Below, piece by piece: positions 7,237 through 24,246 of a stretch of 64,000 nucleotides of DNA (its first letter is position 1; the number at the start of each line of letters is the position of its first letter). The position numbers and the translations under genes are program-made. The stretch lies in contig JACPAV010000002.1 of the NCBI GenBank assembly GCA_016180645.1, positions 305,729 through 369,728 on the forward strand, read 5' to 3'. The stretch comes from Nitrospirota bacterium. GTDB lineage: Bacteria > JACPQY01. Below the pieces are notes generated by a model. The model did not search any database. It saw only the letters and a program-made list of their open reading frames with translations, and had not been told where the DNA came from.

Positions 7237-8262
7237 ATGAAGCTGCTCGTCACAGGCGGCGCGGGTTTCATCGGGTCGGCGTTCATCCGGCTGGTTCTCC
7301 GCGAGAGAGCCGCATGGAGCGTCGTTAACGTCGACACGCTCACCTACGCGGGTAATCTGGAGAATCTTGCCGAGGTCGAAACCAACTCCCGGTACCAATT
7401 CGTCAAGGCGGACATCACGGACGGCAAGGCGATCCAGGAGGTCCTATCGAACGGATTGGATGCCATTGTCCATTTTGCCGCCGAAAGTCACGTAGATCGG
7501 AGCATTCAGGACTCCCATCCGTTCATCGCCACCAACGTCCTCGGCACACAAATCCTCCTCGATGCGGCCCGCGCGCGCAAGGTTCCCCGTTTTCTCCACA
7601 TATCCACCGATGAAGTCTACGGCTCACTCGGGGAGACAGGCCACTTCACCGAGGACAGCCCCTTGCAACCCAACAGCCCTTACGCGGCCACAAAAGCCGC
7701 CGCCGACCTTCTTGTGAGAGCCGCCTTCGTCACCCACAAGATGGGCGCTCTGATCACGCGCTCGTCCAACAACTACGGCCCCTACCAGTTTCCCGAGAAG
7801 CTCATCCCGCTCATGATCACGAATGCGATGGACGATCAGCCGCTTCCCGTCTACGGCAAGGGCGAGAACGTGCGGGATTGGACGTATGTGGACGACAACG
7901 CGAGGGGGATCCTCACGGTTCTGGAGAAGGGCAAGGACGGCGAGGTGTACAACATCGGCGCCGGGGAGGAGCGGAGAAATCTCGAAATCTGTGAAATCAT
8001 CCTAAAGGAACTTGGGAAGTCTCGATCGCTCCTTCGTTTTGTGACGGATCGGCCGGGGCACGACTGGCGGTACGCGCTAAAGAGCGACAAGGTCCGTGCA
8101 CTCGGCTGGTCGCCCGCTCTCGATCTGCCGCGCGGCCTCCATCAAACCGTGGAATGGTACAAAGCCCAACGCACATGGTGGGAGCGCGTCAAGTCCGGCG
8201 AATACAAGAACTACTACGAACAGGCGTACGGTCGCAGGCTCCAGGCCGCTCGCGCTCGCTGA
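7237..8262 (+). CDS. rmlB: dTDP-glucose 4,6-dehydratase
   Basis: 341 residues, an extended SDR. It has the NAD-binding motif TGGAGFIGS at the N-terminus, then NVDTLTYAGN, HFAAESHVDRSI, the catalytic STDEVYGS (Thr-Asp-Glu) and YAATKAA with the Tyr and Lys. NNYGPYQFPEKLIP and DRPGHD are RmlB-specific. It converts dTDP-glucose to dTDP-4-keto-6-deoxyglucose for cell-surface glycans. Translation starts seven bases after rmlA, and uvrC follows after six bases, so the three are probably one transcript. Confidence 0.95.
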   Translation: MKLLVTGGAGFIGSAFIRLVLRERAAWSVVNVDTLTYAGNLENLAEVETNSRYQFVKADITDGKAIQEVLSNGLDAIVHFAAESHVDRSIQDSHPFIATNVLGTQILLDAARARKVPRFLHISTDEVYGSLGETGHFTEDSPLQPNSPYAATKAAADLLVRAAFVTHKMGALITRSSNNYGPYQFPEKLIPLMITNAMDDQPLPVYGKGENVRDWTYVDDNARGILTVLEKGKDGEVYNIGAGEERRNLEICEIILKELGKSRSLLRFVTDRPGHDWRYALKSDKVRALGWSPALDLPRGLHQTVEWYKAQRTWWERVKSGEYKNYYEQAYGRRLQAARAR

Positions 8263-8268
8263 CATGGC

Positions 8269-10113
8269 ATGAGCGCCGACAGCGCGCTCCTCGAAAAAAT
8301 CGGGCGGTTTCCCCACTCCCCTGGCGTTTACCTCATGAAATCGGCCCGCGGGGACGTTCTCTATGTCGGCAAATCCACCGACCTCCGCTCCCGCGTGAGG
8401 CAGTACTTCGCGGGACAGGATACCCGGCCGCGCATCCACTCCCTCATGAAACAAGTCTCCGATGTGGACTGCATCGTCACCGCGAGCGAAAAAGAGGCCC
8501 TCCTACTCGAAAATTCGCTGATCAAGGAGCACCAGGCTCCTTACAACGTGTCGTTCCGCGACGACAAGGACTATCTCTGGCTCAAGATGGACATGCGGCA
8601 TGATTTCCCCCGCCTGGTCTTCGTGCGCCGCCCCAAACACGATCAGTCCAAGCTATTCGGTCCCTTCGCCTCCGCGCGGGCGGCGCGGGAAACCGTCCGA
8701 TTCGTCAGCTCGATGTTCCCCCTCCGCACCTGCTCCGATTTCGAGTTCGCGAACCGGAGCCGACCCTGCCTCGAATACCAGATGATGCGATGTCCCGCCC
8801 CGTGCGTCGGCAACATAAGCCGGGAGGATTACGGGAATCGCGCCAGGGAGGCGATGCTATTCCTGAGCGGAAAGAGATCGGAGGTCGTGCGCGAGCTGGA
8901 AGCCGAGATGGCCGCCCTCTCCGCCGAGGAACGCTTCGAAGAGGCGGCCGCGGTCCGCGACCGGATCGACGCCATCCGGAAAACACTCGAACCGCAGTCG
9001 GTGAATCGGGCGGAATCCCAGGACCAGGACGTGCTAGGCATGGCGAGAGAGGCCGATCGGTTGACCGTCATCCTCATGGCCATCCGGCAGGGGAAACTGA
9101 CGGACACCAAGACCTACCACCGGCACGATGTTATGGAAGACGATCCCGAAGTTCTGGCCGCGTTTCTCTTGCAGCACTACGAGAAGAACGCCGTCCCAAG
9201 TCAGATTCTGCTCCCTTTTTCCGTTGCCGGCATGGAAGAGATGCAGGGGGAACTGAAATCCAAGGCCCTGCACGCGGTATCTCTGGAGGTTCCGGAGAGG
9301 GGCATGCGCAAGTCGCTGACCGAACTGGCGAGGAAGAATGCGGAGAATGCGCTTCAAATCGCCCGGCGGGAAGAGGAGCGGAATCATGATCTGCTTGCCG
9401 GTCTCCAAAAAGAGCTCTCTCTCCGGAATTTCCCCGCCGTGATGGACTGTCTGGACATCTCCAACATTTCGGGCGAGCACGCCGTGGGATCGGCCGTTGT
9501 CTTCAGAGACGGGATTGCGTCGAAAAAAGATTACCGGAAGTTCCGTGTTCGCCTTCGGACGTCGGATGGAACCACGCTCGTGGATGACTACGCCATGATG
9601 CGCGAGGTGGTCCGTCGAAGATACGCGCGCCTTCTCCGGGAGTCCAAACCGCTGCCGGATTTGATCGTCATTGATGGCGGACGAGGGCACGTCGAGGCTG
9701 CCCGCACTGTTTTGGCGGAGTTGAACGCGGAGACTGATCTGATCGGCTTGGCGAAGGACAAGGAATCAGGAGTCCAGCCCCGTGTGGATAGGGTTTACAA
9801 GGCCGGGGCCGTCGCCCCAATCATCCTTTCAAGCAACGCGGCGGCCGCCTTCGTTCTGATGCGGTTGAGGGACGAAGCGCACCGGTTCGCCATCACCTAC
9901 CATCGGGTCCTGAGATCGAAAAACACCATCGCCGGCGAACTTGAAAAGATTCCGGGAATCGGGCCGAAGACCTTGCGAAAAATCATGCGGGCATTTGGAA
10001 GCCCGGACGCAGTGAAAAAGGCCACAGTGGAGGATCTTGTGGGCAGGGGGAAACTGCATGCGGCACTCGCCGATCGATTGTATCGCCACTTTCATCCTGA
10101 GACACCCGCCTGA
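8269..10113 (+). CDS. uvrC: Excinuclease ABC subunit C
   Basis: 614 residues, full length. The order is GIY-YIG nuclease (about 14-90, PGVYLMKS..VLYVGKS..LRSRVRQYF), UVR motif (about 203-238, EERFEEAAAVRDRI) binding UvrB, an RNase H-like endonuclease domain (about 380-540, DCLDISNISGEHAVGS) and a helix-hairpin-helix end (about 555-600, IPGIGPKTLRKIMRAFG). It makes both incisions in nucleotide-excision repair. ATG at 8269 puts the GIY domain at the usual distance from the N-terminus. Confidence 0.95.
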   Translation: MSADSALLEKIGRFPHSPGVYLMKSARGDVLYVGKSTDLRSRVRQYFAGQDTRPRIHSLMKQVSDVDCIVTASEKEALLLENSLIKEHQAPYNVSFRDDKDYLWLKMDMRHDFPRLVFVRRPKHDQSKLFGPFASARAARETVRFVSSMFPLRTCSDFEFANRSRPCLEYQMMRCPAPCVGNISREDYGNRAREAMLFLSGKRSEVVRELEAEMAALSAEERFEEAAAVRDRIDAIRKTLEPQSVNRAESQDQDVLGMAREADRLTVILMAIRQGKLTDTKTYHRHDVMEDDPEVLAAFLLQHYEKNAVPSQILLPFSVAGMEEMQGELKSKALHAVSLEVPERGMRKSLTELARKNAENALQIARREEERNHDLLAGLQKELSLRNFPAVMDCLDISNISGEHAVGSAVVFRDGIASKKDYRKFRVRLRTSDGTTLVDDYAMMREVVRRRYARLLRESKPLPDLIVIDGGRGHVEAARTVLAELNAETDLIGLAKDKESGVQPRVDRVYKAGAVAPIILSSNAAAAFVLMRLRDEAHRFAITYHRVLRSKNTIAGELEKIPGIGPKTLRKIMRAFGSPDAVKKATVEDLVGRGKLHAALADRLYRHFHPETPA

Positions 10114-14024: not shown

Positions 14025-15155
14025 ATGATTTACCTTGACCACAACGCCACAACGCCCGTGTTGCCGGAGGTACTTGAGACGATGATGCCCTACTTCACCA
14101 AGGAATGGGGCAACCCCTCCAGCAGCTACAAATTCGGATCCAAATTGAAAACCGTGATCGAGCAGGCGCGGGAGCAGGTAGCTCAACTGATAGGCGCGCA
14201 CCCAATGGAAATCATCTTCACCTCGTGCGCCACGGAGAGCAACAACGCGGCGATCCATGCAGTGCTCAAAGCCAATCCGGGCAAGCGGCACATCATCACG
14301 TCATCTGTGGAACATTCGTCGGTGCTCAACTACTGCAAGGCACTGGAGAAGGATGGTTATCGCGTCACGTATCTGCCGGTGGATCGCGAAGGGCTGATGA
14401 AGCCGGCGGATTTGGAGACTGCGATCACCGGCGAAACGGCCATCGTCTCATTGATGTGGGCGAACAACGAGACGGGGGTGCTGTATCCGGTGAAAGAAAT
14501 CGCGGAGATTTGCCGGTCCCGCGGGGTATTCTTCCACTGTGATGCGGTGCAGGCAGCGGGCAAAGTGGAAATCGACGCACGAAAAGCGCCCTTAGACTTC
14601 CTTTCACTGACAGGCCACAAATTTCATGCGCCGAAGGGCATCGGGGCGTTGTACATCCGCCGAAAGGCGCCGTTTTCACCTCTCATCGTTGGTGGGCATC
14701 AGGAGCGACGTCTGCGCGGGGGAACCGAGAGCGTCCCGTTGATCGTTGGGATGGGCAAGGCGGCGGAGTTGGTGGGCAAGAGTCTGCCCGCCTACGACAA
14801 GAGAGTCGGGCCGTTGCGTGATGCGTTGGAGGCCGGGATCCTTGGGTCAATTCCTTACGGGGAATTGAATGGGCATAAGACCTTCCGTTTGGCGAATACC
14901 ACCAACCTCACATTCAGAGGAATCGAATCGGAGGCTTTGCTTTTGCTGCTCGATCAGGAGGGAATATGTGCCTCATCGGGATCGGCCTGCCTTGCCGGGT
15001 CGGACGAACCTTCGCACGTCGTCAAGGCCATGAAGCCCGATTCCTCCGCTTCCCGTCAGATGATCCGATTTTCGCTGGCCCCTTCGAATACGTCCGATGA
15101 GGTATCGGCAGCCGTCGGGGCCGTGCTCCACGCTGTCACCGATTTGCGGGGCTGA
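14025..15155 (+). CDS. dndA: Cysteine desulfurase, NifS/DndA type (sulfur donor for DNA phosphorothioation)
   Basis: 376 residues, complete class-V aminotransferase fold. The PLP-binding lysine lies in SLTGHKFHAPKG (near residue 200) and the catalytic cysteine in the loop ASSGSACLAGSDEPSHV (near 323). LDHNATTP opens the protein. The sequence is NifS-like rather than housekeeping IscS. It mobilises sulfur from L-cysteine. It is the only + strand gene of the island with an obvious link to the dnd operon at 16.8-24.2 kb, and no Fe-S assembly or tRNA-thiolation genes are adjacent. DndA is therefore the best reading, with a general NifS role as the alternative. A possible promoter lies in 13963-14024. 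Confidence 0.85.
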   Translation: MIYLDHNATTPVLPEVLETMMPYFTKEWGNPSSSYKFGSKLKTVIEQAREQVAQLIGAHPMEIIFTSCATESNNAAIHAVLKANPGKRHIITSSVEHSSVLNYCKALEKDGYRVTYLPVDREGLMKPADLETAITGETAIVSLMWANNETGVLYPVKEIAEICRSRGVFFHCDAVQAAGKVEIDARKAPLDFLSLTGHKFHAPKGIGALYIRRKAPFSPLIVGGHQERRLRGGTESVPLIVGMGKAAELVGKSLPAYDKRVGPLRDALEAGILGSIPYGELNGHKTFRLANTTNLTFRGIESEALLLLLDQEGICASSGSACLAGSDEPSHVVKAMKPDSSASRQMIRFSLAPSNTSDEVSAAVGAVLHAVTDLRG

Positions 15156-15165
15156 CTTCTCTCTC

Positions 15166-15498
15166 ATGAAACTTCCGGCGGACACGGTGATCGCCCCCGA
15201 GAAGGTGACGCGATACCTGCTTGTACAGTATGCCCGTGGCGACAAGTCAAAGTTTCTGGCGGCGGCAGGCTATTCTCTCGAAGACCCTGACAGGCTCCTC
15301 CACGATCTCCGCGCGCAGATTCTCCCGTTGGAGGCAACGGCCGTGGAATCGAATCAGTTCGGGGAATATTTTGAAATCCGAGGCACGCTGACCGGCCCCA
15401 ACGGCGTAACGTTGGCTATCCGAACCATCTGGCTCAAGGAACGTTTGTCCGGCGCCACGAAATTCGTTACACTAATTCCAGACAGGCGGAAAAAATGA
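15166..15498 (+). CDS. DUF6883-family small protein (copy 2)
   Basis: A 110-residue paralogue of 496-822, sharing MKLP.DT.IAP, KF.A.AGY, ILPLEA and TKFVTLIPD. It starts 10 bases after the cysteine desulfurase stop, so it is probably in the same transcript. Its stop overlaps the next start by the same ATGA arrangement. There is no visible catalytic motif or membrane segment. Carriage inside the Dnd island suggests a maintenance or accessory defence role; this is inference. Confidence 0.7.
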   Translation: MKLPADTVIAPEKVTRYLLVQYARGDKSKFLAAAGYSLEDPDRLLHDLRAQILPLEATAVESNQFGEYFEIRGTLTGPNGVTLAIRTIWLKERLSGATKFVTLIPDRRKK

Positions 15499-15737
15499 CG
15501 GAATTGACATTGTACAGAGATGCCGTGCTCACGGCCGACCTGCCCAAGCATGGCCTCAGGCGTGGCGATATCGTCAAATTGGTGGACCACCATGTTGCTC
15601 CAGATGGGACGGAGGGTTACTCCATCGAGGTGTTCAATGCCGTGGGCGACACCATCGCCGTCACCGCCGTTCCAGCCGCTTCGCTCGAACCCCTAAGCGA
15701 GAACGAAATCCTCTGCGTCCGCCCCCTCGCCGCGTAA
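15495..15737 (+). CDS. DUF4926-family small protein (copy 2)
   Basis: An 80-residue paralogue of 819-1061 with DLPKHGLRRGD, YSIEVFNAVGDT and VRPLAA. It is coupled to the DUF6883 gene by ATGA. The similarity continues past the stop into the dispersed repeat at 15741, so the duplicated unit is at least the gene pair plus ~80 bp of flank. Confidence 0.75.
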   Translation: MTELTLYRDAVLTADLPKHGLRRGDIVKLVDHHVAPDGTEGYSIEVFNAVGDTIAVTAVPAASLEPLSENEILCVRPLAA

Positions 15738-15740
15738 TAT

Positions 15741-15823
15741 CGTCCGATTCCCCCCGCCTCAGGGTCCACCCCCTACCTGAAGCTTCGTCCAAATGTGCCA
15801 AACCCCATGCCTTACCCCGGCCG
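15741..15823 (+). repeat. Dispersed repeat, copy 3 (TCAACCCC family)
   Basis: Begins with CGTCCGATTCCCCC just after the DUF4926 stop, exactly as copy 1 begins after the other DUF4926 gene. It continues with a CTTCGTCCAAATGTGCCAA run and CATGCCTTACCCCGG. Part of the middle seen in copies 1 and 2 is deleted. Confidence 0.6.
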
Positions 15824-15887
15824 TGCGGTTGCCGCTCGGGCCGCTCTTGAGGAGCGTGGAGGCCTCTGCTAGACTCCGATTGAGATC

Positions 15888-16061
15888 ATGACCATTACCA
15901 CGCTCGCCCAAACTATCCGCCACCTTCCTACTCCGGACCGGATCAAGCTCTTTGATCGGCTTGGCCCGACGCTGGAAGATTACCTTCTCGCCAAGATAGC
16001 CTACGACCGCTTCAGGAAGGCATCTCACAAGCGGATTCCCTGGGCGGACCTCAAGCCCTGA
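15888..16061 (+). CDS. Small RelB-like antitoxin
   Basis: 57 residues from ATG 15888 to TGA 16061. The C-terminal half (YDRFRKASHKRIPWADLK) resembles the toxin-embracing tail of RelB-type antitoxins. The N-terminal half is helical with many charged residues. The stop is two bases before the toxin start, and the order antitoxin-toxin is the usual one. Autoregulation by the antitoxin is expected but no operator is obvious. Too short for a confident family call on its own; the partner makes it convincing. Confidence 0.7.
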   Translation: MTITTLAQTIRHLPTPDRIKLFDRLGPTLEDYLLAKIAYDRFRKASHKRIPWADLKP

Positions 16062-16063
16062 CG

Positions 16064-16342
16064 TTGTACAAGGTCGAATTCCTCGAGGAAGCCGCACAGG
16101 ACTGGCTTGACCTCGATCATTCCGTCCGCAAGAGACTTTTCGCGGCCATTGAACGATTGAGGTCGCATCCCGATCTGTACGGGAAACCTCTCGCCCAGCC
16201 TCTCCACCGTCTGCGACGCATCCGAAGCGGCGACTTCCGAATCGTCTACAGGGTGAACGAAGGAACCAAGACGGTCGAAGTTGGAGTCGTCTGCCACAGA
16301 TCGCAGGTCTACCAAATCGCCCTCCGTCGCCGGCTCGTCTGA
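16064..16342 (+). CDS. RelE/ParE-family toxin
   Basis: 92 residues, starting at TTG. The RelE/ParE fold is clear: YKVEFLEEAAQDWLDLD, helix RKRLFAAIERLRSHPD, LHRLRRIRSGDFRIVYRVNE and a final VCHRSQVYQIALRR. The basic residues in the C-terminal strands fit ribosome-dependent mRNA cleavage by RelE-type enzymes. A ParE-like gyrase poison cannot be excluded. The pair probably stabilises the Dnd island. Confidence 0.85.
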   Translation: MYKVEFLEEAAQDWLDLDHSVRKRLFAAIERLRSHPDLYGKPLAQPLHRLRRIRSGDFRIVYRVNEGTKTVEVGVVCHRSQVYQIALRRRLV

Positions 16343-16454
16343 ACCTCCCGCATAACGCCGCGGTTCACGCGCGCCAAGGGGGAGTGGCACAATCGGGGTA
16401 CATTCAAAACCACGCTCTGGCGGAATTGCGAGATCCGCGCTGTCGGGGGGAATC

Positions 16455-16495
16455 GGGGGACGCCATACTTATTTGTGAATTGAGTACGGTATCCC
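16455..16495 (+). repeat. REP-like inverted repeat, copy 3
   Basis: GGGGGACGCCATAC and a TATTTGTGAATTGAGTACGG core ending in TATCCC. It clearly belongs to the family at 3976 and 4846 but is more diverged, with a weaker stem. Confidence 0.65.
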
Positions 16496-16658
16496 GGGAA
16501 TCCAGACCGTATCGAGCCATCGAGAGAATGCTCACAATCACGTTGTCGGGATCAGCCTTGTCCGTGCTGCCCCACGGAGTGTCAGAACACGCCGGACTCA
16601 AAGTATCAACCCCCATGCGCCATGCCAGCCGCCGCGAAATGTCCTGTGTCTAGAGTTG

Positions 16659-16740
16659 ACCCCACTGCCCGCTAGAGTTGACCCCACTGCCCGCATCAAC
16701 CCCCATGCCTGACCCCCGCCAGCCGCCGTTGATTTCACCT
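16659..16740 (+). repeat. Short tandem repeat plus TCAACCCC-family fragments
   Basis: Two adjacent near-identical units (AGAGTTGACCCCACTGCCCG) are followed by a CATCAACCCCCATGCCTGAC block. The unit is out of any ORF. It marks the junction between the TA module and the operon end. Confidence 0.6.
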
Positions 16741-16751
16741 TCACCCGCAGA

Positions 16752-17750
16752 TCAGGGAAATAGCACCTCCGAAAAGGATGGGAAGTATCGATACACCTCC
16801 GCATATCTCTTGACATCCGATTCAGGCACGCCGGGCACGCGCAGTTTTCCTGAGGATATCTTGGGCAACTGCGAGTTAAGATGACGAATTTCTTTCGGCG
16901 TCAGACAGGGCGCCTTTATGTGGCAAGGATCGGAACTGGCGCGAATGAACGGCAACGTATCAAAGTTGCACTCTAGGAATTTCTGCTCCTCTTCCGCACG
17001 GAAAAAGATTCCACCGACCGTAACCATCTGGGCTCCATCCTTGTAGCGGAAGTGAAATAGTTGCCGATATTGGACCTTTTCATTCAGCGGAAGCATTGAA
17101 TTTCGCAAAGATATTTGCTCGGAAATTACGTTATCAATGACCTTGCGAAACACGCTAGCAAGCCCTTGACCACGCAAGTCAGTTCCAGAAGTGCCAGCCG
17201 GCAGTTGCCCCCCCAAAAGCTCCTTGGCGATACGCAGGCGATACTCGTCGAGATCGAACGTTTTGCCAGTTTCCTTTTCATACGTTTCGCGATCCTCCTT
17301 GGCTGGCTCGGCGTCTGGGTGTGCGTTTACGGTGACTACCAACGAACTGCCGCTGGCCGCACGCAGACAGACGGTTGCGATATCCCCCAATATTCCAGTA
17401 TCAAGACGATTCTCGTAGTCCAACCATGCGATGGTGCGACGCCGCCAGTCTATTGTAGGCAGAACCTCACCAGAGTTTGCAAACTTCAATTGTATGCACC
17501 GGTAAGGGCGGTTGAATCGGAAGCAGGCTCTCGACGACGTTTCTTTTTCAATACTCAGCATGTTGGTTATGCCGAGTTCGCGATGGAGGAGTTGGAAATC
17601 GCTGAAGTAGATGGAGCCAAATCCCACGTAGCGGTATTCCTGAATCCGCTGGAAGGGATGCAGACGTTCGAACGCCGCACACAGCATCCTCCGTTCAATC
17701 GCCTTTCCCGGACGCAGTGCATAGTTGATGATTCGGAAGCTGTCCGACAC
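16752..17750 (-). CDS. Rossmann-fold O-methyltransferase-like protein, putative partner of the GHKL ATPase
   Basis: 332 residues from GTG 17750; this codon overlaps the TAG of the upstream gene by one base, implying translational coupling. The N-terminal half looks like a class-I methyltransferase: YVGFGSIYF at 41-49 for motif I, an acidic end of strand 2 (SIEKE, 66-70) and WLDYE at 109-113. Similar proteins are annotated only as putative O-methyltransferase and, from memory, recur beside GHKL ATPases in defence islands. Glycine-rich motif I is atypical, so catalysis is uncertain; it could bind a nucleotide or DNA instead. It is the last gene of the operon. Confidence 0.7.
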   Translation of the reverse strand: MSDSFRIINYALRPGKAIERRMLCAAFERLHPFQRIQEYRYVGFGSIYFSDFQLLHRELGITNMLSIEKETSSRACFRFNRPYRCIQLKFANSGEVLPTIDWRRRTIAWLDYENRLDTGILGDIATVCLRAASGSSLVVTVNAHPDAEPAKEDRETYEKETGKTFDLDEYRLRIAKELLGGQLPAGTSGTDLRGQGLASVFRKVIDNVISEQISLRNSMLPLNEKVQYRQLFHFRYKDGAQMVTVGGIFFRAEEEQKFLECNFDTLPFIRASSDPCHIKAPCLTPKEIRHLNSQLPKISSGKLRVPGVPESDVKRYAEVYRYFPSFSEVLFP

Positions 17751-19114
17751 TATTCTTCCCCTTCGGCTTCGTAGCGCATGAAATATTCGAACGTTTTCTC
17801 CCCAACGCCAGTGAAGGTTTTCGATTTAAGAATCAGCTTGGCTCTCTCAACCTCACTCGCAGGCTTCCAGTATTGAATTCTACACATTCTCGGCCCGGCA
17901 GCGGCGGGAGCCATTGACGGAGCTACGAAATTACCCCCACGCTTAATCATGTTGACCTGTTTCGAGTCGGCGGTCTCGATTGCATTTTCGAGGGGATGTT
18001 GGCCCTCACCGGCAGTCTTTTCCTTGACAAGATTAGTTAGAAAAGTCAGTACCGGCCTGGTCATCTCGATCATCTCGCGCTGGACAGCCTTGTAGACGGG
18101 GGAGTCGGCGTCCACTCCGGTTTTCGTCGTTGTCCAAGGCAGCAAAGAACCATCATCAGAGTCGAGATAAGCGTAGCCACGAAAATAGGCAAAATCAGGA
18201 TGGTATGCCCGCATGTTGTGACGATTCCCCCAGACTGTTGCGTCTGATTGGTCGGCGCGCAATATTAGGCGTCCGTTGCAGAAGACATACCAGCCGCCAT
18301 CGTGGAAGCTACGCTCCGCAACGCCAGCATATAGCCTTACTCGCACCGGCGGGCCCGGCTTACCTACGAGTATTTTGCTCGGATAAGACTTCTCCACATA
18401 GCCGGGCTGCAACATCTTCGAAACAAAAAGCTCCTGCGGATCATGCTTGATCGGCAGACCGTTCAAGGTGATGGCAAGCTCGCGATCCAAAGTTAAGGGG
18501 TGAGCTTGGCTCATCTCCTCTGCAAGCCTGCTCTTAAAGTTATCCAATGCGAAAGTATCCGCAACATTCGCCAGGAGCCGGTCGACCTCGATGCGCGTGC
18601 CGGTGTCCTTCTCCGGAACGTGCAAACCAGTCTCTAGTTCACTGAAAGTGAAGTGCCACTCCTCGGGAGATTGGGCATCAGCCATCCATTGATCCACATC
18701 GACATCCACCGTGAATCGCGCCTCCCTTGTTGTCGAGCGCACGACAAAATGGCGTCCAAGCCTAAAGAAGGTCCGCTTCATGCCTACTCCGAACTGTCCC
18801 ATTGAGCCAGGGGTGCCCTCAGTTTCTTCTGGCCGCCCAAAGCGAAATGCGTAGCCGCGTGCGACATCAACGGGAATTCCGCCACAGTTATCGGCAATGA
18901 GAAAATGCCTAGCATCCAGTTTCATTTCCACCCTTAGCCCGCCATAGTTGCCAGCGGGACGAAGTCTCCGTGCTCCGTCCACCGAATTATCTACGAGATC
19001 AAGAATGGCTCGCGTTAGCGGGATGTCCCTTGTGAGCATGTGAATGAAGAATTCCTTTGTTGGAGACGCATTGATGAGCTTCTGCCCACCTTGGGAGGAT
19101 GAAGTAGGTGCCAT
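17750..19114 (-). CDS. GHKL-type ATPase (MutL/Hsp90/MORC-like), putative Dnd effector
   Basis: 454 residues from ATG 19114, four bases after the upstream stop; the frame is open further upstream but overlaps the previous gene. The Bergerat fold is complete: N box DLVDNSVDG (39-47, with the catalytic-type Asp/Asn pair), G1 DNCGGI (75-80) and G2 GQFGVGMKR (106-114). The middle domain contains a lysine-rich strand region. There is no histidine-kinase H box and no receiver domain, so it is not a sensor kinase. ATP-driven clamp closure on DNA, as in MutL and MORC ATPases of some R-M systems, is the likely mode. Its position after the dnd modification genes suggests a role in restriction or signalling. 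Confidence 0.8.
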   Translation of the reverse strand: MAPTSSSQGGQKLINASPTKEFFIHMLTRDIPLTRAILDLVDNSVDGARRLRPAGNYGGLRVEMKLDARHFLIADNCGGIPVDVARGYAFRFGRPEETEGTPGSMGQFGVGMKRTFFRLGRHFVVRSTTREARFTVDVDVDQWMADAQSPEEWHFTFSELETGLHVPEKDTGTRIEVDRLLANVADTFALDNFKSRLAEEMSQAHPLTLDRELAITLNGLPIKHDPQELFVSKMLQPGYVEKSYPSKILVGKPGPPVRVRLYAGVAERSFHDGGWYVFCNGRLILRADQSDATVWGNRHNMRAYHPDFAYFRGYAYLDSDDGSLLPWTTTKTGVDADSPVYKAVQREMIEMTRPVLTFLTNLVKEKTAGEGQHPLENAIETADSKQVNMIKRGGNFVAPSMAPAAAGPRMCRIQYWKPASEVERAKLILKSKTFTGVGEKTFEYFMRYEAEGEE

Positions 19115-19118
19115 GCGT

Positions 19119-20600
19119 CTACCTCCCCCCATCACGCCAGAATTGGCGGGCTGGGCCGGTGATGAGCTTGCCTTGCAAGCGCAGAGCGGCTTCGGCTTTC
19201 GTGAGTTTCTGATGAACCACACCGCCGAGGATCATTCGTTGTTCGGCGTCTTTCAGCGTGTGCGGCGAGAAGTGGGCTCCGCATTCGGCCAACTCGGCGA
19301 AATTGGTATCGTTGGCGCCCGGCGTCAGGAATTTATCGGCGTCCTGCGAAGCCAGCCAGACGGGGAAGCCCCATGATCGACCCTGCCTCGCGAGCAGGCT
19401 CAGCAGGCCGGCCTTGCTCTCCTTCGGCAGAATCAGATGCGCTTCATCCACAAATAGCACCATCTTGAGAGGCTGGATGTCATTCTTCACGGCCAGTTGC
19501 CGGCTCAATTTCTTGATGAGGAAGTTCAGAATGAGGGCGGCCGACAATGCCTTCGTATCGTTGTCCGTCCCGAACTCCTTGAAATCGATGACCAGGGAAC
19601 CATTCAACCATTCCTCCGGGGTGATCGCGGTCCGGGCGGAGGCGAACAGATTGAACCGCTCGATCTTTTGAACGATGCGCTGTTCAACACCCTCCGTGCC
19701 GCTGTTCACGAGCTCCGCCGACAAGGACGCGAAATCCGGTTCGGCGAGTCGCTGGTAGCAGTCGCTGAGATTGCCCTCCTGTCTAGCGCCGAGTTGCGGC
19801 GCGAAGCATCGGATAAGGCCCGCCATCTCGTAGGCAACCTGGGCATTCTGTGTTGGGTTCTGATGGCGGTAGAGTGGGTTGATCGGCAGGCTCTGCTGGA
19901 TCAGGCGGACATACCGCGCGCCGGTCTGTTCCAGGAAGCGCCTGCGATTCTCCGTCTGCCTTGCGTCCTTGGGATTGTCTTCAAGCTCGCCCTTCATGTC
20001 GAAAAACACGAAACGAACGCCACCATTCGCCGCTTGCGCCAGGAGGTCGAGCGCAAGCTGGCTCTTGCCGCTGCCGGGTTGACCGGAAATCACCAGCAAG
20101 CCGTTGTTCGTGCCCGGACCGTTTACCGACCATTCCGGACCGTCCGTCAATACTTTCAATTTCACTTCGGTCTCGACCACCGGCATCGGTCGAGCGACGG
20201 GCTCCGCGCCGGGAAGCCCAGACTCGCCACTCGCCAAACGCAAGAGAGACGCCACGAACCGGGCCTGATCGTTCCCCGATTCCGACCATATCTGCCCCAA
20301 GCGTTGGCAGCCAAACTCAAAGTGACGACGAAACTCCTGCCGGTACCCGGCTTCGTCGAGGGTCCGTCCGGCCCGGTGGTTCAATGCGGCGCGGACCAGA
20401 TCCCGGAGATCATCGCCGACAACCTGCTCGTCATTCAGCGTCACGCCTTTGGAGTCCTTGGGTTTGTACTCGGTGGGCACGCCCTGCCCCAGAGCGAGGA
20501 AGAGCGCCGCGCGTCCGACAATCGCCTGATTCCGCGCGCCGACGCGGGCAAAGACGTTCTCGATGAACTCGTGAGCTTCGCCGCTGGTCTCGAATTTCAT
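19119..20600 (-). CDS. DndE-like domain fused to a HerA/FtsK-type ATPase
   Basis: 493 residues. The start is ATG 20600, which overlaps the upstream stop (ATGA) and has a purine-rich AAGGAAAAGG before it. Residues 1-105 resemble DndE (RVGARNQAIVGRAALFLALG, GVTLNDEQVVGDD, RRHFEFGCQRL), the nicked-DNA-binding subunit. After a linker comes a P-loop ATPase: Walker A GQPGSGKS (173-180), Walker B VLFVDEAHLIL (near 390) and a LARQGRSWGFPVWLASQ segment typical of HerA. In classical systems DndE is a separate ~110-residue protein and the HerA-like DptH belongs to the restriction set. Here the two are one polypeptide. The DndE part is a remote match. Confidence 0.78.
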   Translation of the reverse strand: MKFETSGEAHEFIENVFARVGARNQAIVGRAALFLALGQGVPTEYKPKDSKGVTLNDEQVVGDDLRDLVRAALNHRAGRTLDEAGYRQEFRRHFEFGCQRLGQIWSESGNDQARFVASLLRLASGESGLPGAEPVARPMPVVETEVKLKVLTDGPEWSVNGPGTNNGLLVISGQPGSGKSQLALDLLAQAANGGVRFVFFDMKGELEDNPKDARQTENRRRFLEQTGARYVRLIQQSLPINPLYRHQNPTQNAQVAYEMAGLIRCFAPQLGARQEGNLSDCYQRLAEPDFASLSAELVNSGTEGVEQRIVQKIERFNLFASARTAITPEEWLNGSLVIDFKEFGTDNDTKALSAALILNFLIKKLSRQLAVKNDIQPLKMVLFVDEAHLILPKESKAGLLSLLARQGRSWGFPVWLASQDADKFLTPGANDTNFAELAECGAHFSPHTLKDAEQRMILGGVVHQKLTKAEAALRLQGKLITGPARQFWRDGGR

Positions 20601-20863
20601 GGGCCTTTTCCTTCCCGAACAAGCCGCTGCCCTGTGGGAGAGGCCCAAAAAGCTGCGAGAACGCCGTCGCGGAATTCTTCGTAAACCCCTCGATCAGCCT
20701 CAAGCATCTTGGCTGCCTTTCGCGCAGCGCGGCGAAACTCAGCCGCAGTTTGCCAGTCCAGCGTACTGTGAAATATCTCGTTGCGCATGATCTCTTCAAT
20801 CATCCCTGCGTCCACCGGACTGCAACCCGTAGCTTCGATGATGTCTTCAGCGTAGCCGCTCAT
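20597..20863 (-). CDS. Small helical protein between dndD and dndE::herA
   Basis: 88 residues, predicted all-helical and acidic. An N-terminal stretch DIIEATGCSPVDAGMIEEIM is followed by HSTLDWQTAAEFRRAARKA and an aromatic C-terminal helix (EFRDGVLAAFWAS). Its stop overlaps the next ATG, and it starts 18 bases after dndD, so it is firmly inside the operon. I remember similar unnamed small proteins beside other genes, without known function. A stabilising subunit or small regulator of the modification complex is plausible. Confidence 0.7.
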   Translation of the reverse strand: MSGYAEDIIEATGCSPVDAGMIEEIMRNEIFHSTLDWQTAAEFRRAARKAAKMLEADRGVYEEFRDGVLAAFWASPTGQRLVREGKGP

Positions 20864-20881
20864 GGTATTCCTCCTTCGTTG

Positions 20882-22945
20882 TTACAGGTCCTTTCCGAAG
20901 TAGTCGCTTGTGATGCGCACTTCGTAGTTCGGGCTGTCGGGTCTGCCATGCGGGTGCAACGTGTAGGCACGCGCAAACCGGCCACGGGCGCGGTCAAACA
21001 GCGGTCCATCCGGATCAATCTCAGCATTCGTGCTGAGGATGATGGACTGGTGGCCGCTGAGGTAAAGCCGGTCGAGCACGTTGGCGCGGACTTCTTTGTC
21101 GAGGCGGGCCAGTGGCGTGTCCACAACCAGCGGCGGAACGAGCTTGGCCAGACGACGCAGGGCTTCGTAGAACGCCAGCATTCGCACCTGTCGCTGACCG
21201 GCGGACGTGTTCGTTTCCTCCCAGGTAACTTTCCTGCCATCCCGGCGCACGAGCCAGCATTGCCAATGGCCGTCAAAGTCCATGCCCTCGAACTCCCGCT
21301 CCCGCTCGGTAATTTCCACCCACAACTTGCCGACTTCCTCGGAGAGCTTCCGCCGCATCAGAATTGCGGCTCGGCTGCGAATCTCGCCGGCGGCCTCGCG
21401 GTAGCGGGTCGCCATCGCCGCCAAACTTTCGCCCCGCTTGGCACGTTCGGCAATTTCCGACTGCGTCGTCTCCTGGCGTTTCAGATCCACAAGCTCAACC
21501 TCAAGACGCGCGATTTCGGCATCAATATCCTTCAGTCGTTTGGAGATTTGATCGCGGCGAGTGATGAGGCCGCCCCGCTTTTCGTGGAGTTCCACGCCTC
21601 GTTTGTACGCCGCCGTGTTTTGTTGCATCTGTCTCAGCTTCTGGTTCAACTCGCGTAGCTCAACGTCCATTCGGTCGATCTCCGCACACCTGTCCGATAG
21701 GTCGCGAATATCGCTCTGGTTCAGGGCAAGCTGTCGGCGAATCTGCGCACTCGTGTCGTTGCGGTCGGCAATGTAGATGCGGTCGGGCATCCCTTGCGGT
21801 GGTGGATGGAACAGGCTGTGGAGAGCGTCTTCCAATCGCTTCATGTAGAAGGATTCGACATCAGGTTGGAGCTCGAATTCCTTGGGAACACCACCAAACA
21901 CGTCCTGCTTTACCTGCGGAATCTTCGGCTCGACCGTGGACTTGGCGCTTTCCCACTCGCGACGACGTTCCTCGGATAGCAAAGCGCCATGCAATTCCTT
22001 GCAGTAGACCCCAAGCAACGAGACCGGTAGAGCCAACTCCCAAGCTTCTGTGAGTCTGGCTTCGAGTTTGGCTTTGGCCCCTGTAAGTTCGCCGCGGCGT
22101 TCTTGAGCTCTCTGCAACTCATCGGGGTCGACTGCTCCAAGCGTTTTCAAGTCGTCTTCGACTTCAACCAGTTCGGCTTCGACTTCTTTCAAGTCGCGGT
22201 CAAGGGTTTCGCGTTCAAGATGTCTGACCTTCAAGTTGCCCTCCACAGTCCTCACCTTGCTGTTCAACTCGTTGAGGGTCGTCAATGGGTCAGGGCCGCC
22301 GGTGGAATTGAACACGCGTGGGATCTTCGAGCTGATCAGTTGACGGAGATCGTTTTCCAGTTCGGCATAGGCCTGAAGGCCAAGGATTCGACTCACGCCT
22401 TCAACGATGTCCTGCTGTCCCAAGTTGATGGCCTGGCTGCGCTCAGCATCGAAAAAGAAGAACCGCGCCAGATGGCGCGGCAGGAAAGCGTCCCGAAGTT
22501 TGTGTATCTCTTGTTCGTCTTGGATGGTGCCCGGCTTGTCGGACCGTGTGGCATGATGCTCCCAGACTGGCGCCGAGTTGGAGCGGAACCGCACTTGGCG
22601 AAGGATCTCCACTTTCCGACTGCCCACTTTGTCATCGCGGAGACTCACCACCGCCTTGAGACGCACTAAGTCTTTACCTTCAGACAGTGCATGCCGATTG
22701 AGCGACTTCTCGAAGGTGAACCGCGTCGCATCTGACCCAGTCTCCACCTTCTTCAAGTCGCCGACGCCGCTCTCGCCGACCACCGCAAGATATAGGGCGC
22801 GCAGCAGGTGAGTTTTTCCGGCACCATTCTTTCCGCCCACGATAACGCCACACTTGCCCTCAAGACTTCGGAAGTCAACGGTGTGCTCGCCGTAGAATGG
22901 CCCAAAGTTCTCCAGCGTTAGTGAGTCGATATGGACTTCCGCCAT
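20882..22945 (-). CDS. dndD: DNA sulfur modification protein DndD (SMC-like ATPase)
   Basis: 687 residues. Walker A is GGKNGAGKTH (37-46), after the N-terminal strand LENFGPFYGEHTVDF. Two coiled-coil stretches (about 230-320 and 400-510) flank the hinge. The C-terminal lobe has the ABC signature NTSAGQRQVRM and Walker B LVVDTPLARLD followed by D-loop-like residues. This is the DndD pattern of RecF/SMC-type ATPases that supply energy or DNA opening for phosphorothioation. Only two bases separate it from dndC. Length is normal for the family. Confidence 0.92.
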   Translation of the reverse strand: MAEVHIDSLTLENFGPFYGEHTVDFRSLEGKCGVIVGGKNGAGKTHLLRALYLAVVGESGVGDLKKVETGSDATRFTFEKSLNRHALSEGKDLVRLKAVVSLRDDKVGSRKVEILRQVRFRSNSAPVWEHHATRSDKPGTIQDEQEIHKLRDAFLPRHLARFFFFDAERSQAINLGQQDIVEGVSRILGLQAYAELENDLRQLISSKIPRVFNSTGGPDPLTTLNELNSKVRTVEGNLKVRHLERETLDRDLKEVEAELVEVEDDLKTLGAVDPDELQRAQERRGELTGAKAKLEARLTEAWELALPVSLLGVYCKELHGALLSEERRREWESAKSTVEPKIPQVKQDVFGGVPKEFELQPDVESFYMKRLEDALHSLFHPPPQGMPDRIYIADRNDTSAQIRRQLALNQSDIRDLSDRCAEIDRMDVELRELNQKLRQMQQNTAAYKRGVELHEKRGGLITRRDQISKRLKDIDAEIARLEVELVDLKRQETTQSEIAERAKRGESLAAMATRYREAAGEIRSRAAILMRRKLSEEVGKLWVEITEREREFEGMDFDGHWQCWLVRRDGRKVTWEETNTSAGQRQVRMLAFYEALRRLAKLVPPLVVDTPLARLDKEVRANVLDRLYLSGHQSIILSTNAEIDPDGPLFDRARGRFARAYTLHPHGRPDSPNYEVRITSDYFGKDL

Positions 22946-22947
22946 GA

Positions 22948-24246
22948 TTAGGCCTTCTTCTCTGCCTCCTGTTTCGCCAAATCGTCTTTCAAGATGAAGA
23001 GCAGATCGTCCGGGAGGCCGTGGGCGCGGTGGCTTTCGCTGTATTCCTCCACCTTGGCAAGCATCCGACGGAGCGTGTCGGTGTTGATCCCCTTTTCCCG
23101 GGCGATTTCGTCCTCCAGCTCCCGAAGTTTGTTGAGTTCCTTCAGATCCGTGCTCATCATGACACCTCGCTGTTTGTTGAGGATACGGGCGACGCCCCGG
23201 CCGTCATCGGGATCGCGCGCGGCCTTCCACATTTGTTGGATCAAGAGGAGCTCCTCGGAGGCTATAATGGGCAAACGGGTTTCCTCCTGCAACGCGAGCA
23301 ATCGGGCCAGCAACTCACGCCGGGCCTCAATGTGCAAAGGCCCCGGGCCCTTGTCGCCATTCATCCGTTTCATGTCGCGCTTGCCGTTGGCGGGGTCGCG
23401 GTAGAACTGTAGGGTTTCTCGAAATTCGATGAGCTTCTCCATCCGCTCGTCGCCGGCGGCCAGCAGCCCCTCACTGGCTTTGTCGCGATCCACCACGGTG
23501 CAGGTCCAGCAGCCGAAGCGGGAGTTGCCGCAGCTTGGAGTGCTGGTGTCGATCTGAATGGGACATTCACCGTTGGAGGCGCTGGAGTAGAGTTTGTATA
23601 GTGCGCGGTTGTCGCCACCCCAGGGGTTCGGCGTTTGGAGGAGATAGGCCCAAACTTCCTCGGTGGTCAGGTATTCGATTGGATTGGAGACCCACACGCG
23701 CGGCAGGTCCGGGTGACGGCGCAAGCCGTTGCGGGTCTCGATACCCGCCATTGTTTGCGCCCGAGTTGCGCTTTCCTCCCGCCGCGCCCCCAAATGCAGG
23801 ATGGCATCGCCCCAGTGTCCTATCCGTTTCTTTACAAAGTCATTTACCGGATCTATCTTCATCCGCTGAGTACACCAACGAAAGGTGCGATTGGGAGGGG
23901 GGTATCCACGCCCGATGATGTTGACCCAGAACGATTGTTCGGCCGGGGGTTTCAGGAGGTGGGCTTCGAAGTTCAACTCGTTCTGGCTGGAGAACTTCCT
24001 CATTTTGTCGAGCGTGCCCTCTACCATCCCGACGATGGCCGGGATTTCCACGCGCGTGTCCGTACAGAGGAGATTGATCGGCTTCTTGCGATTTTCCCTG
24101 GGGATGGACGCGACCGCGTCGAAGAGGAGCGAGGCCAGCATGGTGCTGTCCTTCCCCCCGCTGAATCCGACGAGCCACGGACGAGGATCCTCGATGTAGA
24201 GGCGGCTGAGGGATTCGCGAATTTCTTGATATCCGCCGGTCACCAC
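22948..24246 (-). CDS. dndC: DNA phosphorothioation sulfurtransferase DndC
   Basis: 432 residues starting at GTG. The ATP-pyrophosphatase loop SGGKDST is at 29-35. Four cysteines (C126 in FRWCTQRMK; C239, C246 and C249 in PSCGNSRFGCWTC) are placed to bind an Fe-S cluster. LGARREES and YL..EEVW are also typical. DndC belongs to the PAPS-reductase/adenylation family and transfers sulfur from DndA to the DNA backbone. It is somewhat shorter than characterised DndC (about 500-540 residues). It is the first gene of the operon; the promoter should lie in 24247-24330. Confidence 0.92.
   Translation of the reverse strand: MVTGGYQEIRESLSRLYIEDPRPWLVGFSGGKDSTMLASLLFDAVASIPRENRKKPINLLCTDTRVEIPAIVGMVEGTLDKMRKFSSQNELNFEAHLLKPPAEQSFWVNIIGRGYPPPNRTFRWCTQRMKIDPVNDFVKKRIGHWGDAILHLGARREESATRAQTMAGIETRNGLRRHPDLPRVWVSNPIEYLTTEEVWAYLLQTPNPWGGDNRALYKLYSSASNGECPIQIDTSTPSCGNSRFGCWTCTVVDRDKASEGLLAAGDERMEKLIEFRETLQFYRDPANGKRDMKRMNGDKGPGPLHIEARRELLARLLALQEETRLPIIASEELLLIQQMWKAARDPDDGRGVARILNKQRGVMMSTDLKELNKLRELEDEIAREKGINTDTLRRMLAKVEEYSESHRAHGLPDDLLFILKDDLAKQEAEKKA

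Follow-up and report, generated by a model that had tools for sequence, protein, structure and literature searches.

A 64,000-nucleotide stretch of a Nitrospirota genome (the window) encodes a Dnd phosphorothioation (PT) system of the DndEi type, whose operon continues directly into genes for a GHKL ATPase and a protein of the family PF20553 (Methyltransf_35, here MT35). On balance, we favour the reading that the restriction role in this system is taken by the obligate pair of GHKL ATPase and MT35. The gene content, its conservation, the obligate pairing, the adjacency of the pair to modification genes and its exchange in one slot of related loci were observed directly.

Operon layout and modification core

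The host genome (4.7 Mb, 65 contigs, 97% complete) carries six almost gapless genes on the minus strand in the order dndC, dndD, an 88-amino-acid ORF (orf88), a dndE::herA fusion, GHKL ATPase and MT35, with spacings of +2, +18, −4, +4 and −1 nt in the order of transcription. A gene for a NifS/DndA-like cysteine desulfurase, dndA (14025–15155, plus strand), is convergent to this operon. Ordinary genes form the borders of the locus, with ComEC and an epimerase on one side and enolase on the other. DndC, DndD and a DndE homologue thus share one operon, and a cysteine desulfurase is encoded at the same locus, which together is the gene set of a Dnd system. Family scans matched every gene named by the initial annotation except orf88, and its claim of a single unit agrees with the near-zero spacings and with the same order being kept in four other genomes. 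A chance reading of the ORFs is ruled out by identities of 66–84% in DndC, DndD and DndEi across other genomes.

The product of dndC (22948–24246, minus strand, 432 aa, GTG start), a PAPS-reductase-like sulfurtransferase, matches the PADLOC model of DndC with E 3e-125 and TIGR03183 with 375 bits against a cut-off of 290, and both its P-loop SGGKDST and the Cys-rich region CP..SCG..GCWTC are intact. DndD (20882–22945, minus strand, 687 aa), a DndD/PbeC-type ABC ATPase with a coiled coil, is recognized by PADLOC with E 3e-60. We call it divergent because PbeC models score nearly equally and TIGR03185 stays under its cut-off. In the fusion protein (19119–20600, minus strand, 493 aa, ATG at 20600) a DndE domain (PF08870, 29.0 bits against a cut-off of 25) is followed by a HerA/FtsK-type P-loop. 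A DndE domain and a HerA-like P-loop in a single ORF define the DndEi type, so that the fusion fits a published description and is ruled out as the new architecture it had been taken for.

The small protein orf88 (20597–20863, minus strand, 88 aa) is preceded by a GGAGG ribosome site and matched no family at a meaningful E-value in PADLOC, Pfam, NCBIfam and PHROGs. It is present in the operon as annotated but is not a constant component, since only three of eleven dnd loci have it, the window among them; the other two are L003 (45% identity) and L009 (73% over 63 aa). In L002, the orf88 position between dndD and dndEi is occupied by a gene (7428–8450) for a restriction endonuclease of the Mrr type that also matches HARE-HTH weakly. 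No relatives came up when plasmids were searched with orf88 and DndEi and viral contigs with MT35 and DndEi.

The reported absence of dndB and dndFGH was borne out: neither DndB nor DndH (PDLC02683) had a match in the 97%-complete genome, and no operon protein matched the DndF or DndG models. A GmrSD_N/DUF262 protein (PF03235) was likewise not detected in the genome, hence there is no detectable DndI or SspE homologue. Genes of Dnd-Pbe, i.e. the HKD nuclease-SF2 helicase PbeA and a second ABC ATPase/DndE pair, were found neither in the operon nor in its flanks, and no nuclease domain was recognized in any gene of the cassette.

Further small genes lie between dndA and MT35. Directly 3′ of dndA are genes with DUF6883 (15097–15498, plus strand) and DUF4926 (15495–15737, plus strand), two domains that also adjoin dndA in L004 (13452–14117) and are possibly another accessory of such dnd loci. 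A ParE-family toxin gene (16064–16342, plus strand; PF05016, 48 bits) follows a 57-aa ORF located just 5′ of it, the two spanning 15888–16342 of the plus strand. No ParE-type insert was found between dndA and MT35 in L006, L008 and L009.

An exchangeable slot behind dndEi

As the host phylum is represented by only two genomes in the collection, relatives were sought in other phyla. Ten genome loci with DndEi were found at 71–78% best-segment identity. As to the phyletic spread of the gene neighbourhood, the order DndC-DndD-DndEi-GHKL-MT35 facing DndA is kept in four of them (L006, L008, L009, L010), whose record titles name different phyla or groups, namely Deltaproteobacteria, Acidobacteria, Nitrospiria and Verrucomicrobia. 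A convergent DndA relative is present downstream in full length in seven of the ten related loci and, cut by the locus end, in an eighth (L011); L002 and L005 stop before the place of dndA. In L002, L003, L004 and L007 the slot after DndEi is filled by a small protein and a DndB-family protein, the small protein having two to four membrane-like segments in the first three and none detected in L007. No DndFGH was found among the flanking genes tested in these loci either, so that the absence of this restriction module is not special to the GHKL-MT35 variant.

In a tree of concatenated DndC, DndD and DndEi the slot types are interleaved, with L006 (GHKL) grouping with L004 and L007 (small protein and DndB), and a single GHKL lineage is rejected (AU test, p = 3.5e-57). 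Since the core tree mixes slot types, the modules swap. The GHKL proteins of the five dnd loci form one clade, as do their MT35 proteins, and both clades stand apart from their methylase-linked relatives. The simplest reading of these trees would be that GHKL-MT35 entered dnd loci once and was afterwards exchanged among their cores. Judged from its gene orders, the locus combines a predicted PT core with one exchangeable slot or more. In L010, a C-terminal dndA fragment (9803–10099) separates MT35 from a complete dndA copy and is possibly a trace of recombination at the slot boundary.

Such mobility could also mean that an ordinary Dnd modification system merely has an independent defence unit, GHKL-MT35, as a neighbour sharing the slot by chance. 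The pair does occur apart from dnd, and its G+C content of 52.8% differs from that of dndC-D (58.6%), dndEi (60.7%) and the flanks (60–61%). However, the single operon with near-zero spacing, the gene order common to five genomes and the dnd-specific clade of both proteins make a chance neighbourhood very improbable.

The GHKL-MT35 pair within and outside dnd loci

The GHKL ATPase (17750–19114, minus strand, 454 aa) is a paraMORC-like protein that matches HATPase_c_3 with 35.9 bits against a cut-off of 25. Its motifs DLxDN, DxCGGI and GxGxKR and the TTK lysine are conserved in 18 sequences, and with these motifs retained an active ATPase is expected. The protein also has an S5-like region, a putative S5 domain whose fold the structure model (pLDDT 44) was too poor to confirm. 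The neighbourhood with DNA modification enzymes matches that of the paraMORC ATPases of restriction-modification (R-M) systems, and by domain and neighbourhood together the protein fits the MORC/paraMORC group of R-M operons. A GHKL ATPase domain is needed for the anti-phage activity of VcSduA (PMC12137116).

MT35 (16752–17750, minus strand, 332 aa) matches PF20553 with 344 bits against a cut-off of 27. Its AlphaFold model, built from five sequences, is of moderate confidence (pLDDT 65, pTM 0.67) and has many matches among SAM-methyltransferase folds, the best with Z 12.5 over 167 residues. A class-I SAM-methyltransferase fold with a conserved GxG, E68 and D111 is therefore predicted. The idea of a hidden nuclease is not supported, as the moderate model matches SAM methyltransferases. 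Thirteen residues are invariant in 17 MT35 proteins (Y10, R13, K16, R20, Y41, G43, G45, D51, E68, W109, D111, E287 and P324). RlmM, TlyA and fibrillarin are among the fold matches, which together with the invariant K16, D111 and E287 gives a lead, and only a lead, towards a 2′-O-methyltransferase.

Nearly 1,400 genomes, drawn mostly from four phyla, were scanned for PF20553, and all of the eleven new genomes over the cut-off were examined. With the five dnd loci, two plasmids and one phage this makes 19 MT35 loci, and in 19 of 19 the GHKL gene lies directly 5′ of MT35. In all eleven sampled genomes the pair has a DNA methylase gene as its immediate neighbour, of the C5-cytosine type in five (L037, L039, L040, L042, L043) and of the N6/N4 type in six (L038, L041, L044, L045, L046, L047). 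With 1–11 methylase matches per genome, the chance of such adjacency within a 5 kb window is 0.2–2.4% per genome and approximately 1e-24 for the eleven together, a value that assumes random placement, which defence islands violate, and is thus a lower bound on chance. In genomes G457 and G815 the neighbour of the pair is the sole C5 methylase match, and PF01555 has no match.

Mobile elements carry the pair as well. On a Microvirga plasmid it is located inside a DISARM operon between an MmeI-like gene and drmA, and the inovirus (filamentous phage) Pseudomonas phage PfAC20 has a compact cargo cassette of GHKL, MT35 and cytosine methylase (L048, 280–3711), whose methylase is listed by its authors as an incomplete defence system (PMC11878078). 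On pSymA of S. meliloti (L012, 8148–13347) MT35 is split by an inserted IS66-like transposase cluster with the upstream GHKL open, and the distance to a cytosine methylase and Vsr is about 3 kb. Two haloarchaeal plasmids encode a more distant GHKL beside Dam-type adenine methylases and lack MT35 (L014, 7799–11784, beside dptFGH; L015, 8992–11854). Among the loci found, the GHKL-MT35 pair was never seen without an adjacent DNA-modification gene. This favours a restriction-like role, as a restriction component needing protection is expected to keep such company.

Two other roles have to be weighed against these neighbourhoods. The main rival is that the pair is a regulator in the place of DndB, tuning the PT level or dnd expression, and no restriction component itself. 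It does occupy the slot that holds the small protein and DndB in four related loci, and DndB is described as a negative regulator in other Dnd systems. However, the pair also stands beside several unrelated types of DNA methylase and in DISARM, where no replacement of a DndB was seen, and we regard regulation as unlikely. Slightly less probable again is a second mark on DNA or RNA, written by MT35 as an active methyltransferase while the GHKL protein opens or clamps the substrate, which would make the cassette epigenetic and non-restricting. Such activity would suit the modelled fold, the invariance of R13, K16, G43, G45, E68, D111 and E287 across the 17 proteins and a cassette without nuclease. 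Yet MT35 is always linked to another modification gene, its GHKL partner points to R-M-type operons and SAM binding could by itself account for the conserved sites.

Proposed function and relation to known systems

The marking scheme of dnd genes is established knowledge for the family. In our proposal, DndA would supply the sulfur, and DndC, DndD and DndEi, the last with a DndE DNA-binding domain and a HerA translocase, would place PT marks in host DNA at a short motif. The GHKL protein may clamp DNA as a dimeric ATPase in the manner of MORC/paraMORC proteins, and MT35 would be its dedicated partner or the catalytic subunit. Their common target would be DNA without the self mark of the locus, which is PT in this operon and methylation in the relatives, and they would so block invading DNA. 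As the cassette has no recognized nuclease, the block may consist of clamping or silencing, of an MT35-dependent reaction or of the action of a host nuclease. That PT is made at the locus, that the pair restricts and the manner in which it does so are what we infer. The initial annotation had left the choice between a PT-linked defence system and a solitary epigenetic one. Comparison across the loci speaks more for a module with a restriction-like or regulatory role, because the pair was always seen beside a DNA-modification gene and is exchangeable with the small protein and DndB, and the solitary epigenetic alternative keeps some plausibility.

More tentatively, and as a possibility we would not yet bet on, GHKL-MT35 might be a modification-agnostic restriction module that serves C5-cytosine, N6/N4-methyl, DISARM or PT marking alike. 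Unmarked DNA would then be stopped without a classical nuclease by a MORC-like clamp and a methyltransferase-fold partner. If this is true, many methylases called orphan or incomplete R-M systems, such as that of PfAC20, would be complete systems, and the neighbourhoods suggest that an overlooked restriction partner may be encoded right beside DNA methylases now classed as orphan. Should the pair sense that a base methyl group or a backbone sulfur is missing, one effector would serve chemically unrelated self marks. Our findings add a candidate partner module to the PT-based systems, one that looks common to methylation-based systems, and link prokaryotic PT systems to MORC ATPases. In eukaryotes, MORC ATPases silence DNA.

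Among the components, DndEi, paraMORC ATPases in R-M operons and PT-based defence with several partners are already known. New, as far as the searched literature goes, are GHKL-MT35 as a pair, its presence in DISARM and its link to PT. In accordance with the initial annotation, no publication with the same gene set was found, and neither Methyltransf_35 nor PF20553 was mentioned, an absence that is weak evidence in a literature with few subscription journals and no supplements. The main text of the 2024 Dnd survey (PMC10853773) makes no mention of GHKL.

One of the closest known systems is the DndEi-type Dnd system, in which DndE has an added ATPase/helicase domain instead of standing alone (Zheng et al. 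2016 JBC, doi 10.1074/jbc.M115.694018; cited in PMC7464106); the window differs by the GHKL-MT35 pair, of which the sources consulted make no mention. PT-based defence has several known partner modules (DndFGH, Pbe, SspE, SspFGH and DndI), and the window resembles these systems in combining predicted PT with a second module that would act on unmarked DNA. Here, however, the second module is GHKL-MT35, and the operon has no PbeA-like gene. In paraMORC R-M operons, a GHKL ATPase, there with an S5 domain, similarly stands beside cytosine methylases and Vsr (Iyer 2008, PMC2292703), whereas a PF20553 partner and a link to phosphorothioation are not described in the accessible parts of that paper. 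The sets of HEF_HK, Response_reg_2 and C5-methylase (PMC8011034) likewise bring a GHKL protein together with a cytosine methylase and one further dedicated gene, but this further gene is Response_reg_2 (PF19192) instead of PF20553 and they involve no PT. DISARM, finally, shares the very same GHKL-MT35 pair with the window through the Microvirga operon, while the window itself has no drm genes.
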